From positions 372,001 to 436,000 of the forward strand of contig CANQBM010000001.1 in NCBI GenBank assembly GCA_947589575.1: DNA of 64,000 nt, written 5' to 3'. Each line of letters starts with the position of its first letter. Position 1 is the stretch's first letter. This stretch comes from an uncultured Clostridia bacterium. GTDB lineage: Bacteria; Bacillota; Clostridia; Oscillospirales; Acutalibacteraceae. The position numbers and the translations under genes are program-made. Shown here piece by piece: positions 2 through 39,675 of this stretch. The notes below the pieces were generated by a model. That model ran no database searches. It saw nothing but the letters and a program-made list of their open reading frames with translations, and was not told the DNA's origin.

Positions 2-3000
2 GACGGAATAATCGCTCAGCAGGTAACTTTAATTGAAGAAGCGTTAAAGACACTTCGTATTGACCCTGACACGGTTGTAGTTACCGAAAACGGCAGATAT
101 TCTTTAAATTCGGCTGTTAAGCTTGAGGATGAGGCGGGAGATCCGCACGATTATGCAAACTACGTTGTATTTGAAACTGCTGTTAACGACGCAAGAAATT
201 ATATTCTTCAGATGGCTGCTGAGGAGTTTACGGATTATGATACTCAGTATAATGCTTATATTGAGAAGATAAATGCTGTTGTTAAAGCGTATTATTCTCT
301 TGAATATGCGTTTACAAACATACCTGACGGTACAATAGCTCAAACTCCTGAATATAAAAGCATTACTCAGCTTAACCACGATCCGGACGGTGGTTATAAT
401 TACTGGTTTGACTTCCGTTATCCGTCATCCGCTATTATTTTCAGAACAACTCACGATGCAAAGACTGTAGATTACGGTGATGCGGAACTTACCTATGCTT
501 TGACATCCGGCAGCGATGCAAATAAAGACAATAATGCTCTTGACAGTATTACAATCGAAGGCACTGCGGAAGCTGCTGCCGGTCAATTAACCAGCAATGG
601 TATGGGTAACGGCACGCCGAAAGAATTGTCTCAAGACCAGAAAACGACATATGCCGGCTCTCTGTCTCATAACGGATTTTCGTTAACCAACTTCAGAGTA
701 ACGGAAACAGCAAACGACACCCTTGACCATTACGGCATAGATGCAAGCGGTAACCATATCACCGAGATGGTATCGCCGACTGACGAATACACAAAGATTC
801 TTGCGACAACAGAGGGCTTATCATCATTGAACGGCACAATTCCTCTTAAGGCTACAAAAGGCGGTGAAAACGCATCAATTAAGCTCACTTCCGATATGAA
901 CTATGATGTGCCCGCGTCTGAAAAGCAGGAGCTTTCCGCGACGACACTGCCTACAAGCACTACTTATTCGTTGACCGGAACATATTTCGGCGCTACATTT
1001 GCATGGAGTACACAGCCGTCTTTTGCTTATGCAGGTTATGCTTATGTAACGTCAAAGACAAATGAAGAGATGCTTGCATCAACAGTAACCGTACTTGATA
1101 TCTCATATCTTATTGAACTGTGCGATAAGATTGAGGATGAGGTTGCTCCCGAAAGCCAGAAATATACCGATGACTCATGGCAGCAGTTATCACAGGCTCT
1201 CATGGAGGCTGAAGCAAGCTTAGATTACTCTACGCTCAGCGCGGCTACCATGCTCAATCGCTGCCGCGGAAGATATACTAATCTTTGGAACGCATACCAG
1301 AACCTTAAGATTAAGGACCTGAATGTTACATTCAATTATAAGGACGCTCAGGGCTCTGATACATCAAGCGTTATCACAGTTAAGTACGGTGAAACTCTCA
1401 ATGACCATCTTGACGAGTTCAACCAAATAGTTCCTCCTTCATATTCATCTGAAGACGGCATGACACTGTACACATTTGATACATGGTCGCCTGAAGTTCA
1501 GCTTGAGGAGCCTGTTGTATTTGAATCAAGCTATACAGCTCAGTATGTTGAATCTCAGAACAAAGCCGATTTCACTGAATATGATCTTGCAAAGGCTGCT
1601 CTGAAGGGCAAGCTTACAGATAAAACCTATACGGTTAAAGACCTTGAGGCTCTTGAAGCCGATGTTAAGCAGATGACATATTTTGATATGGACGAAGGTG
1701 CGAAAGGAGAGCTGATGGGTGACTCTCAGCCCGCAATTAACGCTGAGAAAGATAAAATCAATCAGCTTGCTGAAGGACTCAAGGCGGCTACTCTTGATGA
1801 TTCAGCCGCTGAGGCTGCCGTTCAGGCTGCAAAGGCAGGCAAGGACGAAGATGTTTATGACATCAGCGGTCTTGATTTTGAGTATACGCAATCAGTAAGC
1901 GTATGCGGTGAGAGTGTTCTTGGTCTTAAGTATGAAAGCCAGGATGAGCTTGACGCGGCTATCTCTGAAGTTTTAAGCAGCTTAAGCAAGCATCAATATA
2001 CTATTTATCTCAACGGCAGAAATGTAGGTACGGCAGAGTACGGCACACCTGTTATAGTAGACAGTAACGGAACATTTACTGCAAATGTTGACGACACATC
2101 TAAGAATGATGAGTCATGTGATATGGTTGCATGGTCATACAGCTATGCTGCTCCTTCAAGAGATAATCAGCAGACCGAGTCTAAATATATGCTCACAGCT
2201 AAATCATTAGGCTTTGTTGTAAAGGGCGACACATATCTTACAACGGCAAAAGCAGTTGCCTCCGATGAAGGTCATGTAGTTAAGTTTATGACAAATGACG
2301 GTAAGGTATTTGACATCCAGTATACAACAAACGGTCAGGTTAAAATGCCTGCTCCTCCAAGCTATGCGTACTATAAATTTACAGGTTACGATAACGGTCA
2401 GAGCGCAGGTGATACAATTAATGTAACCGATGATATGGTTATTGTAGCTAACTACACTCCTGAATCAAAAACAACTTATACAATCAGTTACTTCGATTCA
2501 TTATACGGCTCTTGGATGGATGAAACAACAACAGATGAAAAAACAGTATCGTATAATACGCTTGTTTCATTCTCAAATCCGGATGCTTATTGCTGGACAA
2601 TCGCGCAGAAAGATGATTTAGGTAATGATAAATATGTTGTAGTATCTTATGGTACTGAATATTCTTTCTACGCTTGCGAATCATTTGATTATGAAGCTGA
2701 TCAAAAAGGATTATTAGCATTTAGCGAAGAAGAATACCAGGCAATCGTTGAATATCAGACAGATTCTGCAACAGGTGAGCACGCAGAAGGCACCGATGAT
2801 ATGCAGCTCTTAGACGCAAACGGCGACTATATTCTTGCCGAAGTTGATGAAACGATGGGTACACTAACATATAAAGATCCGCCTCCGGCAGTATCTGTTC
2901 TTGAAAATGTAGTTCCTATTTACGATTCAAGCGAGAAATTTGAGAAGTTCTCAATGATTGGTACTTTCATTCTTCCTAAAGAATATTCATTGATTGAAAG

Positions 3001-3247
3001 CGGATTCCTGTTCTCATCTAATCAGGATGCTGACCTTACTGTTGAGAAGGTAGGCCAGGACGGAATTGCCCGTATGAAAGCATCAAAGCATACCTGCGGT
3101 AATCAGTTTGTAGTAAATGTTAAAGCCCCGACGGACGGCAGAGTTGTTACATTCAAGTACGCCGGTTATGCAATAGTTAAGGATGCCGAGGGTAACTTAA
3201 CAACACTTTATTCTAAATCAGTATCAACTTCAACAGCTGGTTTCTAA
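2..3247 (+). CDS. Large surface protein, 3' part only (FIVAR-like and InlB-type repeats)
   Basis: The frame is open from base 2, so the gene starts before the window; 1081 residues are visible. In visible numbering, helical FIVAR-like segments lie near residues 373-436 and 523-610. Beta-rich InlB B-repeat-like segments (a 'F.G Y' pattern ending in 'VVANYTPE' or similar) lie near 440-517 and 757-823, with a related segment following. The last ~110 residues form a domain with 'ESGFLFSS', 'DLTVEKV' and a final 'LYSKSVSTSTAGF' that resembles the C-terminus of the protease ending at 38995. No LPXTG, dockerin or C-terminal membrane helix is visible. The composition is Thr/Ser/Asp-rich and Cys-poor, typical of an exported adhesin-like or glycan-binding protein. 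The function is unknown and the N-terminus, including any catalytic domain, cannot be seen. A 51-residue peptide gene starts 19 bases downstream. Confidence 0.85.
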   Translation, partial: DGIIAQQVTLIEEALKTLRIDPDTVVVTENGRYSLNSAVKLEDEAGDPHDYANYVVFETAVNDARNYILQMAAEEFTDYDTQYNAYIEKINAVVKAYYSLEYAFTNIPDGTIAQTPEYKSITQLNHDPDGGYNYWFDFRYPSSAIIFRTTHDAKTVDYGDAELTYALTSGSDANKDNNALDSITIEGTAEAAAGQLTSNGMGNGTPKELSQDQKTTYAGSLSHNGFSLTNFRVTETANDTLDHYGIDASGNHITEMVSPTDEYTKILATTEGLSSLNGTIPLKATKGGENASIKLTSDMNYDVPASEKQELSATTLPTSTTYSLTGTYFGATFAWSTQPSFAYAGYAYVTSKTNEEMLASTVTVLDISYLIELCDKIEDEVAPESQKYTDDSWQQLSQALMEAEASLDYSTLSAATMLNRCRGRYTNLWNAYQNLKIKDLNVTFNYKDAQGSDTSSVITVKYGETLNDHLDEFNQIVPPSYSSEDGMTLYTFDTWSPEVQLEEPVVFESSYTAQYVESQNKADFTEYDLAKAALKGKLTDKTYTVKDLEALEADVKQMTYFDMDEGAKGELMGDSQPAINAEKDKINQLAEGLKAATLDDSAAEAAVQAAKAGKDEDVYDISGLDFEYTQSVSVCGESVLGLKYESQDELDAAISEVLSSLSKHQYTIYLNGRNVGTAEYGTPVIVDSNGTFTANVDDTSKNDESCDMVAWSYSYAAPSRDNQQTESKYMLTAKSLGFVVKGDTYLTTAKAVASDEGHVVKFMTNDGKVFDIQYTTNGQVKMPAPPSYAYYKFTGYDNGQSAGDTINVTDDMVIVANYTPESKTTYTISYFDSLYGSWMDETTTDEKTVSYNTLVSFSNPDAYCWTIAQKDDLGNDKYVVVSYGTEYSFYACESFDYEADQKGLLAFSEEEYQAIVEYQTDSATGEHAEGTDDMQLLDANGDYILAEVDETMGTLTYKDPPPAVSVLENVVPIYDSSEKFEKFSMIGTFILPKEYSLIESGFLFSSNQDADLTVEKVGQDGIARMKASKHTCGNQFVVNVKAPTDGRVVTFKYAGYAIVKDAEGNLTTLYSKSVSTSTAGF

Positions 3248-3265
3248 GAAAGGAGGATGGTAATT

Positions 3266-3421
3266 ATGAAAAAAGCTTATGAAGGACCAAATATTGAAAT
3301 TCGTAATTATACACTCCCTCTCAGAGATGTAGTTATGACATCGGACATCAGCGGCGGCGGTTCCGGTGGTTCCGGCGGCGGAGACCTTGGTGACGGTGAC
3401 GATTTTGATTATTTCGGATAA
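3266..3421 (+). CDS. Small Gly/Asp-rich peptide (51 aa) behind the surface protein
   Basis: ATG at 3266 follows a very strong AAAGGAGG ribosome binding site at about 3249-3256. The product begins MKKAYEGPNIEIRNY, continues with 'LRDVVMTSDI', and ends in a Gly/Ser run followed by an acidic, aromatic end (DGDDFDYFG). It is related to the 40-residue peptide at 38998: both have MK..Y..P..I.I..(F/Y), then DV..TS. and D.G. Both follow a secreted protein with a similar C-terminal domain. There is no signal peptide, transmembrane helix or Cys. Similar short proteins occur in many Clostridia as hypothetical proteins; I know of no assigned function. A conserved leader-like half and a hypervariable tail would fit a precursor or tag-like peptide, but that is inference. 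Transcription probably ends at the hairpin just downstream. Confidence 0.8.
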   Translation: MKKAYEGPNIEIRNYTLPLRDVVMTSDISGGGSGGSGGGDLGDGDDFDYFG

Positions 3422-3432
3422 ATAACAATTTT

Positions 3433-3470
3433 CAAAAGGCTATGGAGAAATCCGTAGCCTTTTGTTTATT
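3433..3470 (+). terminator. Rho-independent terminator after the peptide gene
   Basis: A 13-base stem (CAAAAGGCTATGG with CCGTAGCCTTTTG, one G-T pair) closes a 6-base loop and runs into a T-rich tract. It ends the surface protein-peptide unit. Confidence 0.8.
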
Positions 3471-35800: not shown

Positions 35801-38800
35801 ATGAAAAAACAGTTATGCTTTATTTTGTCAATCCTGATGGCGTCGTCGGTTATTGCGCCGTGTCAGAGTGTAATAGCTGCGGAAGTCAACAAACACAGCG
35901 TGGGATATTTTTCGGATTCCGTTAATGAGATTATTGATACATACGACGGGGATGAGGAATACACATCAGATTCCGAAAGCGACCAGTCCCTTATTAAAGA
36001 CAGGCTCATAGTATCGTCGGATAAGGCTGTAAATGATTACGGTGCTGTTGATAAGGTTGTCGGTCTCGGCTATACAATTCTGCAATATGATAGCGAAGAA
36101 ACCGCCGAAACTGCCAAAGAAAATATTAATGCAGACGGCTATAATGCCGAATATGATTCTGTTCTCTCTTGTGCCGATGTTAATTCGACAGAAAGCACCT
36201 CTAAAACTTGGGGTAATGACAGAATTGAATCAAAGGAAACCTTAAAAGCAATAAAAGCCTCGGGCAAGGAATTGTCCGAGGTTACGGTAGGTGTTATTGA
36301 CACGGGTGTTGACTATACCCACCCCGATTTAAAGAACAGAATAGTTGATACCTCCCTTAACTTTTCATCAAGCGGTAACAGCGGCAGCAGTATGGACGAT
36401 CAGGGACACGGCACTATGGTTGCGGGTATTGTTATGCAGAATACTTCCGATAATGTAAAAATCAAGCCGTATAAGGTGCTTAATAAAGACGGTAAATGTG
36501 CAACATCGCAGATAATTTCCGTTGTTAATCATATTCTTGCCGAAAAGGACGCGCCGAGTGTTATCAACCTTTCTCTCGGCGGAGAGTATGACAAGCTCGA
36601 CCCATTTGAGCAAACGCTGAGAAGTCTGATTGAAAGCCTTGTAGGAAAAGGCTGCACCGTAGTTGTTGCCGCAGGCAATGAATCAAGCGACGCGGGAAAT
36701 TACTCGCCTTCTAATATCAACAGTGTTATTACGGTATCGGCATCAACATCAAAAAACACAAGGAGCTATTACTCTAATTTCGGCAGCACAGTAGATATTG
36801 CCGCTCCCGGAGATAATATCTACACAACGAACTTAGGCGGAGGATATACAAACAGCTATAGCGGAACATCTTTTGCGGCGCCTTTTGTAACTGCCGCTGC
36901 CGCAACGGTTTTGACTCTTGATAACAGCCTTACGTCAAAACAGGTTGAAAACAAAATAAAGGACGCCGCTTTTCCGATTATTAATAATACGGGCACAGAA
37001 TGGTGCGGAGCGGGTATACTCAACTATTCGGCTCTTTATGAGGATACACTTGCTCCTGTGCCCACATTCAGTCAGGAAAGCGGCGCGTATAACGAGATTA
37101 TCCGTTTAACCGCAAACGCGGAAAAAGGATACACAATCAGATATACAACGGATAATACTGTACCAACCTTAACAAACGGTGAAACCTTGAACGGAACATT
37201 GACTATTGAGGACAGTATGTCCTTTGTTGCCGTTGCGATAAATGAAAGCGGAAAGAGCAAATATATACCGCTCAATTATTCTGTAATCTATCTTGCGGAT
37301 GAAAACGATTTTGAAATTACAGATACGGGCGCGATTAAAAGCTATTCGGGCAACAAGAAAAGTATTGTTGTGCCTGAAACAATAAAGGGTATCACACCTA
37401 CTTCAGTTTCAAATAATGCCTTTGCGGGCAGTGATATTAAGGTGATTGAGTTCCCCGATACGGTTACAAAATTAGGCAACAGCGCATTAAATAAATGCAC
37501 TCGGCTCACTTCAATAACCGCCAAGGGAGTAACGGAAATAGGAACGTTTTGTTTTTATTGCGATACGGCGTTAACCGATGTGGATATGCCGAATGTATTG
37601 TTTGTTAATACAAAAGGTTTCAGTGGATGTAAAAAGCTTGAAACGGTGAACTTTAATGAAACAGTTGAAAATTTTTACGGCGGAGTATTTGAGGACACAG
37701 CATTTAAATACGCATATTTCCCGAAAGTCTATAACTTTCAGGACACATTTGTAAACACACCTTTGATTTCGGCAGATTTGCCATTGTTGTATTGGGCAAG
37801 CGGAGCTTTTAAGAATTGTTATTCCCTTGAGCATCTTTATGCTCCCGAATTAGAGGAGCTTGCGCACGGAGCATTTGCAAACTGCATAAAGCTGACTGAA
37901 TTTGTTAAAGAGGGCGAATATGATTTAAGAAAGATTAAAGTTCTCGAAGCGGACGCGTTTGCGGATTCATATTTTAAAGAGATTGAACTGCCCTTAATTG
38001 AAGCGTTTGATTCCGGCGGTTCAGGTGTATTCCAAAGATGCCATGCCGAATATATCAGTATTCCGAAATTGAAAATTCTACGCGAATATACATTTTATCA
38101 GTGTAAAGAGCTTAAGCACATTAATATACCAAATTATGTTGATACTTTAAGATATCCGTATGAAAATGTTTTTACAGATTGTTATTCTTTAGAGGAATTA
38201 TATCTTCCAAACGCTGTTTATCTTCCCCCAATATTAAATACAAGTGATACAAATAAAATGTCTTTGCAATATATTTATGCTCCAAATGTTGAAGATTTCA
38301 CTTCTACTGTTTCATCTTTATTATATTTTTGTGCGAATTTAAAATGGGCTTTTCTTCCTAATGCAAAGTATATACCTAACTTACCGCATGAAGGCAACGC
38401 AACAATATATATATCTGATAAAGTACACGAAATTAATGAACCGCCTTCAAAAAATTTAACTATTGTTGCTCCAAGCGGCTCATACGCAGAATCATATGCT
38501 AAAGAAAAAGGTTTGAAATTCATCCCGAGCGACAGCAGAGATGACAGTATTGAAAATCCTGCAAATGTAACAGATTTAGGCAGATCAATATGCACAACGG
38601 TTGCGGGTCTGAGATTTGGATTCACATGGGATAATATTGATGAAATAGAAAGTCTTGCGTCCGATATTGAATACGGATTTGTTTACAGTCAGAAAGGCGT
38701 TGAGGATTTATCATTAGATAAAGTTGACGACGAAAATGTTAAATCTGTAACCGCAACAAACCGTATAGACCATGGCGATACGACCTCGTTTAATCTTGTT

Positions 38801-38995
38801 ATTTCAAACATACCGAAAAGTTATTATAACAGAGAAATAACAGCAAGAGCTTATGTTTGTATAGACGGAATGTATTTCTATTCAAATGAGCAAAAAGGCT
38901 CTTTCGGCGAGGTGGCAAATCTTGTTTTAGCCGATAATGAAATAGATACGAATACTAAAAATGCTGTTAAAAATTTGCTTGAAAAGGAGGCATAA
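35801..38995 (+). CDS. Secreted subtilisin-like protease with BspA-type LRR region
   Basis: The 1064-residue protein has a signal peptide of about 28 residues and a short propeptide (about 60-125). The S8 peptidase domain has its triad at Asp167 ('GVIDTGVDYTHPDL'), His203 ('DQGHGTMVAGI') and Ser357 ('YSGTSFAAPF'), so it should be active. A chitobiase-C-like beta module ('YTIRYTTDNTVPTL') follows near 430-490. LRR_5/BspA-type repeats run from about 520 to 890 ('AFAGSDIKVIEFPDTVTKLG'). The C-terminal ~110 residues ('YGFVYSQKG', 'DLSLDKV', 'AYVCIDGMYFYS') resemble the end of the surface protein at 2-3247. The repeats probably bind a surface or substrate. No sortase signal is seen. The peptide gene's ribosome site lies inside its last codons. 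Confidence 0.88.
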   Translation: MKKQLCFILSILMASSVIAPCQSVIAAEVNKHSVGYFSDSVNEIIDTYDGDEEYTSDSESDQSLIKDRLIVSSDKAVNDYGAVDKVVGLGYTILQYDSEETAETAKENINADGYNAEYDSVLSCADVNSTESTSKTWGNDRIESKETLKAIKASGKELSEVTVGVIDTGVDYTHPDLKNRIVDTSLNFSSSGNSGSSMDDQGHGTMVAGIVMQNTSDNVKIKPYKVLNKDGKCATSQIISVVNHILAEKDAPSVINLSLGGEYDKLDPFEQTLRSLIESLVGKGCTVVVAAGNESSDAGNYSPSNINSVITVSASTSKNTRSYYSNFGSTVDIAAPGDNIYTTNLGGGYTNSYSGTSFAAPFVTAAAATVLTLDNSLTSKQVENKIKDAAFPIINNTGTEWCGAGILNYSALYEDTLAPVPTFSQESGAYNEIIRLTANAEKGYTIRYTTDNTVPTLTNGETLNGTLTIEDSMSFVAVAINESGKSKYIPLNYSVIYLADENDFEITDTGAIKSYSGNKKSIVVPETIKGITPTSVSNNAFAGSDIKVIEFPDTVTKLGNSALNKCTRLTSITAKGVTEIGTFCFYCDTALTDVDMPNVLFVNTKGFSGCKKLETVNFNETVENFYGGVFEDTAFKYAYFPKVYNFQDTFVNTPLISADLPLLYWASGAFKNCYSLEHLYAPELEELAHGAFANCIKLTEFVKEGEYDLRKIKVLEADAFADSYFKEIELPLIEAFDSGGSGVFQRCHAEYISIPKLKILREYTFYQCKELKHINIPNYVDTLRYPYENVFTDCYSLEELYLPNAVYLPPILNTSDTNKMSLQYIYAPNVEDFTSTVSSLLYFCANLKWAFLPNAKYIPNLPHEGNATIYISDKVHEINEPPSKNLTIVAPSGSYAESYAKEKGLKFIPSDSRDDSIENPANVTDLGRSICTTVAGLRFGFTWDNIDEIESLASDIEYGFVYSQKGVEDLSLDKVDDENVKSVTATNRIDHGDTTSFNLVISNIPKSYYNREITARAYVCIDGMYFYSNEQKGSFGEVANLVLADNEIDTNTKNAVKNLLEKEA

Positions 38996-39123: not shown

Positions 39124-39633
39124 ATGAAAAAGCAATTACTTATTATTTCAATATCAGTTATTATAGTCGGTGTTTTTGTTTCCTGTTCTGCAAGCAGCAG
39201 TAGTAAAGAAATTTCAACTACTGCTGTTACGGACAGTAACTGCACAACGCACTACTATGAGCCTGTTGCTGATAATAAGGGCGTATATGCCGAGATTGAA
39301 ACAGAATCAAACGGCAAAGCTGTAACCGAAAAAGACGGTACATATGTTACAAATGAACATACAACTGTCTTGCCGATTAATGACGAAAACGAAAAATCAA
39401 GCAGCAATAAAAAACTGACAACAGAACAATCAAAAAAAGAAAAACCAGCAACAGAAAAATCAACATTAAGCGCAACAAATAATGCTGCTGATAATGTTGT
39501 TGATTTTGAGCCTGACAAGCAAACAGAGAAAACAAAACCGACTGTATCAACTACTACTGAAAAACAAGCAACAACTGTAAAAGAAACCCAGCCTGCGACA
39601 GATAAGGACGGCTGGATTACTAAATGGTATTAA
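39124..39633 (+). CDS. Thr/Lys-rich lipoprotein
   Basis: The 169-residue product has a lipoprotein-type leader with Cys21 as the probable lipidated residue ('GVFVSCSASSSS'; Phe at -3 is slightly unusual). The rest is low-complexity and rich in Thr, Lys, Glu and Ser, apparently disordered and wall-spanning. The end is 'DKDGWITKWY'. It starts three bases after the peptide stop and is probably co-transcribed with the protease and peptide. No enzymatic domain is visible. It may act as a tether or partner for the unit, but that is inference. Confidence 0.75.
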   Translation: MKKQLLIISISVIIVGVFVSCSASSSSKEISTTAVTDSNCTTHYYEPVADNKGVYAEIETESNGKAVTEKDGTYVTNEHTTVLPINDENEKSSSNKKLTTEQSKKEKPATEKSTLSATNNAADNVVDFEPDKQTEKTKPTVSTTTEKQATTVKETQPATDKDGWITKWY

Positions 39634-39640
39634 AAAGCAA

Positions 39641-39675
39641 AGGAGCAGTCATCTGACTGCTCCTGAAATTTTTTC
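39641..39675 (+). terminator. Terminator shared by convergent genes
   Basis: AGGAGCAGTCA pairs perfectly with TGACTGCTCCT around TC, then a T-run on the plus strand. It also lies just after the stop of the minus-strand small ORF. Confidence 0.88.

Follow-up and report, generated by a model that had tools for sequence, protein, structure and literature searches.

What the product of a short ORF placed directly behind the gene of a large surface protein is made for is the question raised by this locus, and it is raised twice in the window (the whole stretch of 64,000 nucleotides from an uncultured Clostridia bacterium analyzed here), since a second short ORF with a similar first half also follows the gene of a secreted protein (Table 1). 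The initial annotation had read the two peptides as a conserved leader-like part with a variable tail, suggesting a precursor, an export tag or a co-secreted partner and possibly an undescribed system. We consider it quite likely that both products are precursor peptides of an LPP-type linear RiPP whose enzymes act in trans.

Table 1. Positions of the two peptide genes, their flanking elements and the candidate processing genes (window coordinates, or contig and start in the own genome, G000)
Feature	Position	Strand	Remarks
Precursor peptide 1 (predicted), 51 aa	3266..3421	+	leader MKKAYEGPNIEIRNYTLPLRDVVMTS, Gly/Asp tail
Ribosome binding site AGGAGG of peptide 1	3251..3256	+	
Large surface protein, gene directly upstream of peptide 1	2..3247	+	start outside window; putatively secreted, from the L082 and L070 relatives
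C-terminal domain of surface protein	2909..3247	+	from alignments; common to at least 25 other peptide-linked secreted proteins
Terminator-like hairpin directly 3' of peptide 1	3433..3464	+	1 found vs 0.3 expected
Precursor peptide 2 (predicted), 40 aa	38998..39120	+	MKEEYAKPIVGIEEFKTVDVITTS and acidic tail with the end DGSDGW
Ribosome binding site AGGAGG of peptide 2	38985..38990	+	
Subtilase with BspA-type leucine-rich repeats, directly upstream of peptide 2	35801..38995	+	PF00082 4e-43, PF13306 1.9e-36
Lipoprotein, directly downstream of peptide 2	39124..39633	+	lipobox by eye; Thr-rich linker, C-terminal tail DGWITKWY
Terminator-like hairpin 3' of lipoprotein gene	39641..39664	+	5 found in region vs 0.7 expected
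Discrete PqqD-like RRE, 88 aa	C5:42433		gene starts 182 bases behind a peptide gene
Discrete PqqD-like RRE, 88 aa	C2:175108		
HprK-like kinase	G000:C2:136930		kinase profile 1.4e-83; P-loop SGTGKST present
SipW-like peptidase	G000:C3:38828		peptidase profile 2.3e-35; SM.P, MHR, GDN motifs
ABC exporter, 563 aa	directly behind C3:38828 peptidase		matches to MsbA-type and type I secretion models, none reaching cut-off

A peptide family and its place behind secreted proteins

Peptides 1 and 2 align over their first halves with 42% identity and a two-residue insertion before DV, so that the similarity first reported is real while the strict position-by-position register is not. Their membership in one family was confirmed with a profile of 49 family members, built without both window peptides and the two syntenic relatives of peptide 1, which ranked 38998 (E 4.7e-14) and 3266 (E 4.5e-6) as the top two of 2355 window frames, the third best (E 0.1) being the opposite strand of peptide 1 itself. 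The strong ribosome site attributed to peptide 1 is present, and its start lies 18 bases past the stop of the surface-protein gene; an alternative ATG at 3257, which touches the AGGAGG, would give a peptide of 54 residues. Syntenic relatives of peptide 1 are found in the loci L082 and L070 ahead of similar downstream genes, where the proteins encoded upstream have a signal peptide at their start (by eye).

With the peptide as sole query, a search of the own genome retrieved nothing beyond the query itself, and a DNA pattern and then profiles were needed. The pattern gave nine matches in this genome, seven of them family members, against two for the reversed pattern, and the profile search gave eight members at E <= 8.5e-10 with the next match at 0.087, the profile having itself taken in seven of the eight. 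A peptide match at E <= 0.01 occurs in 29 of 37 genomes of the genus (one of them reaching 15 matches when the limit is loosened to E <= 10) and, using a wider profile, in 73 of 295 genomes of the order. The resulting set comprises 92 distinct peptides from 83 loci, including a few low-scoring and possibly false members, all of which were kept. In nine pairs of related members chosen by the analyst, pooled pS (0.43) exceeds pN (0.11), and the absence of codon conservation that would have spoken against the family was thus not borne out. One member of the own genome (G000:C18:12848-12940) is without an ATG, GTG or TTG start and is probably decayed; its contig also has what we take to be a SCIFF-like peptide gene. 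Tandem peptide genes occur at L066 and L068, a near-identical set at two sites in one genome (G029). Pfam and NCBIfam gave nothing for either window peptide, the only PDB sequence retrieved by a profile of the peptide was a ribosomal protein (E 1.2), and peptide 2 gave one match in phage records (E 0.4) and none in plasmids; at gathering cut-offs, the Rfam matches of the window are two tRNAs only.

The placement behind secreted proteins, likewise part of the initial annotation, holds across the family. Under a heuristic signal-peptide rule, 44 of the 92 peptides have a signal-peptide protein of 200 residues or more encoded at most 200 bases ahead of them, the others lying behind an ORF cut by the edge of the stretch (24, among them peptide 1 of the window), behind another ORF (5), behind none (10) or at an edge (9). 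A large secreted protein therefore precedes 44 of the 59 members whose upstream gene can be judged, compared with 15 of 149 other ORFs of at least 100 residues in stretches of the own genome (Fisher 1.3e-19 with the same heuristic rule), which is not the random placement that would have argued against a link. Among 36 upstream proteins scanned, 14 have leucine-rich repeats, 12 have InlB-like repeats and 10 are subtilases; simple rules found no LPxT-type motif and no C-terminal membrane segment in the 36, and of the 26 families matched by them, the 25 that were covered include none of the SLH, sortase-anchor or dockerin type. A C-terminal domain around YGFVY...ARAY...YS is common to many upstream proteins (its alignment covers 26 of 38, picked by eye), and its ending is absent from at least seven (L059, L062, L063, L066, L068, L071, and L079). 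In the window, the subtilase has a signal peptide (by eye) and the shared domain at 38543-38995, and the surface protein upstream of peptide 1 matches no Pfam family at cut-off.

Leader, tail and candidate processing enzymes

The family consensus is MKExYxKPxxEIxEFxTxDVITTS, with conserved columns over the 92 peptides at Y5 (88), P8 (89), F/Y15 (83), D19 (89), and S24 (80). The motif [Y/W]xxPx[hydrophobic] is bound by the leader-recognition proteins of lasso peptides and LPPs (PMC13381572), and we read the shared half of the family as a putative leader with a YxxP motif of the RRE-binding type and the tail as a short acidic core. Tails could be parsed in 82 of the 92 peptides and have a median of 14 residues after the Ser; the Gly/Asp-rich character first noted fits peptide 1, and across the family acidity is the general feature (76/82) while richness in Gly is not constant. 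An aromatic residue stands within the last six positions of 67 parsed tails, 42 are without Ser, and 21 are without both Ser and Thr, which makes the invariant Ser of the shared half the natural candidate for an acceptor. The distance from Tyr to Ser, 19 here and 18 in LppA (PMC13381572), also supports Ser24 as the predicted acceptor. By analogy, the leader would be cut perhaps after [FY]15-x-[T/A/S]17, which resembles the F-3 E-2 T-1 cut of LppA, and T-T-S at positions 22-24 would also suit an enzyme resembling a signal peptidase.

From these features we infer leader binding, phosphorylation, cleavage, export, and function as follows. The peptide would be co-translated with the upstream surface protein, and a discrete PqqD-like RRE would bind its leader through YxxP...E-[IV]..[FY]. 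The RRE would hand the leader to an HprK-like kinase, which may place a phosphate on the invariant Ser of D-[VI]-x-T-[TA]-S, and would also present the peptide to a SipW-like peptidase, which would cut off the leader, perhaps after [FY]-x-[TAS] at residues 15-17. An MsbA-like ABC protein encoded beside the peptidase would export the core, a nucleotidyltransferase could decorate the phosphate, and the predicted end state is a short acidic peptide outside the cell, together with the surface protein.

Genes of each of these types are present in the own genome. The two RREs (Table 1) match PF05402 at 2.9e-17 and 4.9e-16 and differ from each other. In the profile alignment both have N35 and D72 at the positions of LppB N33 and D70, 37 residues apart, and among 13 aligned RREs the Asn is kept in all 13 and the Asp in 11; binding of a leader of the Tyr type is predicted from the retention of these residues. 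The kinase, present like the peptidase in one copy, has only a weak ScmC match in NCBIfam and no match in the PDB, and its relatives have a weak HprK_rel_A match. The motifs of the peptidase are presumably catalytic, its matches to TIGR02228 and SipW lie below cut-off, and kinase, peptidase, and exporter are all below the curated NCBIfam cut-offs. The order of peptidase gene and then exporter gene recurs in G007, G013, and G005, and NTP_transf_5 (PF14907) is present in three copies at three places. As the processing genes are scattered in this genome instead of forming one cluster with a precursor, the proposed use of these enzymes by the peptides is drawn from co-occurrence and analogy.

Co-occurrence is found at the level of the order, where a PqqD match (E<=1e-5, a few fused proteins included) is present in 66 of 73 genomes with the peptide and in 57 of 222 without a detected one (Fisher 1.7e-23, phylogeny ignored), and in a table by genus, entered by hand from tallies, with 46 of 47 genera with the peptide against 30 of 101 without (phylogeny again ignored). 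The seven peptide genomes without a PqqD match are all 68-90% complete. Similarly, among 25 genomes of the genus, four (G004, G015, G019, and G022) are without peptide (E<=0.001), RRE, kinase, and peptidase together, and the other 21 have an RRE in 21 cases, the kinase in 19 (absent in G003 and G018) and the peptidase in 20 (absent in G014); the peptide-free members may be one clade. In G010, G014, and G020 the RRE is present and the peptide matches are weak (E 0.03-0.5). NTP_transf_5 occurs in two to five copies in the 29 genus genomes with a peptide match, in three in G010, G014, and G020, and in one in the four peptide-free genomes named above and in G035, which also has no peptide; its neighborhoods in the genus showed no compact cluster in 12 loci read.

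Physical clustering is found in other genera. At least 15 genomes, the own genome included, have a peptide and a PqqD match 0.5-3.3 kb apart (pairs picked by eye), and a gene for an HprK-like kinase with the P-loop motif stands alongside in 9 of 14 such loci outside the genus; the motif was not found in the other five, though L203 looks to have a cut or diverged one. At L139 and L199, for example, the peptide gene is followed by those for (an SLH protein), the kinase, the RRE, the SipW-like peptidase, the ABC exporter, and NTP_transf_5. L201 is similar, with the nucleotidyltransferase absent from the stretch read, as is L202 (G314), in which a radical SAM/SPASM peptide maturase-like protein (L202:6115-7545; TIGR04463 2.5e-34, below cut-off) is inserted between kinase and RRE. 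Named records contain kinase relatives at 27 loci, most of them in MAGs labeled Eubacterium sp., uncultured Clostridia, Clostridium sp., and Oscillospiraceae. The reading of leader and variable tail as a precursor is well supported by the RRE-type motif and by the way the peptide co-occurs, and in other genera clusters, with genes for RRE, kinase, peptidase, and exporter. Frames of ~470 residues whose PqqD matches are weak were left aside; that at L132 is a SCIFF maturase (TIGR03974). Behind the kinase gene, three genus genomes (L218, L220, and L222) have a gene of a similar, lipoprotein-like type.

Recurring tails and competing explanations

At L081, L204, L080, and L202, an adjacent Sec-type protein ends in residues that match the end of the peptide, for example as DDEGWIDKWY/DAEGWIDKWY or as EGDNGTGWG twice. 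At a score of 24 these four cases compare with an average of 0.5 and a maximum of 3 in 300 shuffles, counting same-strand neighbors that passed a hydrophobicity filter (75 of the 92 peptides had any such neighbor); since L080 and L081 have one tail type in common, the independent cases are three. An opposite-strand lipoprotein with the same PYIPIP tail at L068 (flavodoxin-like, named by eye) falls outside these same-strand counts. At L207, the tails of two proteins are related to each other and less so to that of the peptide. SLH domains were confirmed at L199, L204, L207, and L210, and at L210:4490-5509 (G188) the SLH protein (339 residues; PF00395) continues in frame into a family peptide at its C-terminus, so that nature itself links the two. 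The tail of the window lipoprotein resembles the GW-I/V-DKWY tails of the L063, L080, and L081 peptides and has nothing in common with that of peptide 2 beyond DGW; at L065, L078, L080, and L081, too, the peptide is followed by a lipoprotein ending in GW-I-x-[KR]-WY. Recurrence of the tail on anchored neighbors hints that it may work at the cell surface. A more specific version is doubtful in our judgment: the tail would be an extracellular docking tag that arrives at the surface in two ways, as a modified peptide via RRE, kinase, and exporter or as the end of an anchored arm protein, with the shared C-terminal domain, for which no known anchor was found, as its partner. The arm proteins, an equally doubtful part of that proposal, would be lipoproteins, SLH proteins or membrane proteins with flexible linkers. 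If true, the docking tag would be a RiPP-based means to hold or organize surface proteins.

The strong link to secreted proteins, many with one C-terminal domain in common, would also suit a peptide that is no RiPP precursor and serves that domain as a small partner (chaperone or clamp), either in the cytosol or exported with it, and the peptide itself is without a signal peptide (by eye). We regard such a partner as improbable, as the conserved residues are those of an RRE-binding leader, the peptide co-occurs and clusters with RRE, kinase, peptidase, and exporter genes, and for 10 of the 92 members no ORF of at least 100 residues ends in the 200 bases upstream. A role as a pheromone, secreted and sensed through a two-component system whose response would involve the surface protein, is compatible with the RiPP route and would agree with the many paralogous tails per genome and with the two-component genes, partly LytTR/AgrC-like (by eye), beside the peptide at L059, L080, L069, and L088; no two-component neighbor was noticed in the other loci read, and we give this role little credence. 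That the peptides are lasso or bacteriocin precursors is very improbable: the YxxP leader and discrete RRE are as in lasso peptides, and the RRE profile scores TbiB1 and TfuB1 above LppB, but the PF13471 leader peptidase is unmatched in 55 of 60 genomes searched, the own included (5 match at E<=0.001), and the tails are short, acidic, and often without a Gly start.

Comparison with LPP and other known systems

Our preferred reading, a linear RiPP processed in trans, shares one feature with paeninodin-type and other lasso peptides, namely a [Y/W]xxP leader bound by a discrete RRE, and paeninodin clusters also have a kinase and an NTP transferase (PMC13381572). Assignment to the lasso peptides was dropped, as the own genome gave no match to the PF13471 leader peptidase and no cyclase (macrolactam synthetase) was noticed by eye in the clusters read. 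Prochlorosins are reportedly lanthipeptides of picocyanobacteria made by ProcM, with a different leader and chemistry and with scattered genes. The use of one promiscuous enzyme for many precursors is common to them and to the system proposed here (PMC10783134).

The closest counterpart is LPP, described in 2026 for Bacilli, where the kinase, peptidase, and RRE of the Paenibacillus alginolyticus lpp cluster were tested experimentally (PMC13381572). In LppB, the Pro of YxxP is held by N33 and its Tyr by D70, and D70A weakens binding while N33A nearly abolishes it (PMC13381572). Both systems have a discrete RRE with N33/D70 counterparts, a YxxP leader, a conserved N-terminal part with a variable C-terminus, and genes for an HprK-like kinase, a SipW-type leader peptidase, and an MsbA-like exporter; PF14907 is a candidate counterpart of the LPP NTP transferase. 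The YxxP motif together with the matching Asn/Asp of the RRE is found here, with Y in 88 and P in 89 of the 92 peptides and both residues in both own RREs; PF14907 is present three times, yet also once in peptide-free members of the genus. The LPP leader consensus YxxPxVLxHQxIxFETxxS is not matched, as YxxP, F-x-T, and a later Ser correspond while the spacing differs, and the LPP core of 45 residues is much longer than the tails here (PMC13381572). LPP precursors number one to three within one cluster, often near capsule genes of Bacilli (PMC13381572), whereas here up to 15 matches per genome (at the limit of E<=10) occur, many behind surface-protein genes, with the enzymes unlinked in the own genome. 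Although most features agree, the peptides were for these two reasons, the full leader consensus and the clustering in the own genome, not filed as LPP; we infer a system that works like LPP, as a scattered variant outside Bacilli.

The suggestion of an undescribed system accordingly stands in part, since machinery of this kind is known from LPP (PMC13381572), while the word "clostridia" is absent from the main text of that paper and a literature search, with many journals outside its scope, found no earlier description of the scattered form in Clostridia with precursors linked to surface proteins. If true, the proposal would add a large group of Clostridia from the gut to the range of a RiPP type known from clusters in Bacilli, and it would give a role to some of the PqqD-like proteins without lasso genes from RRE mining (RRE-Finder, PMC7470986). 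It would also mean that RiPP precursors can be spread through a genome as attachments of surface-protein operons, an arrangement that cluster-based mining would miss. The biological role of LPPs is stated as unknown (PMC13381572), a question that becomes testable through the association with surface proteins.
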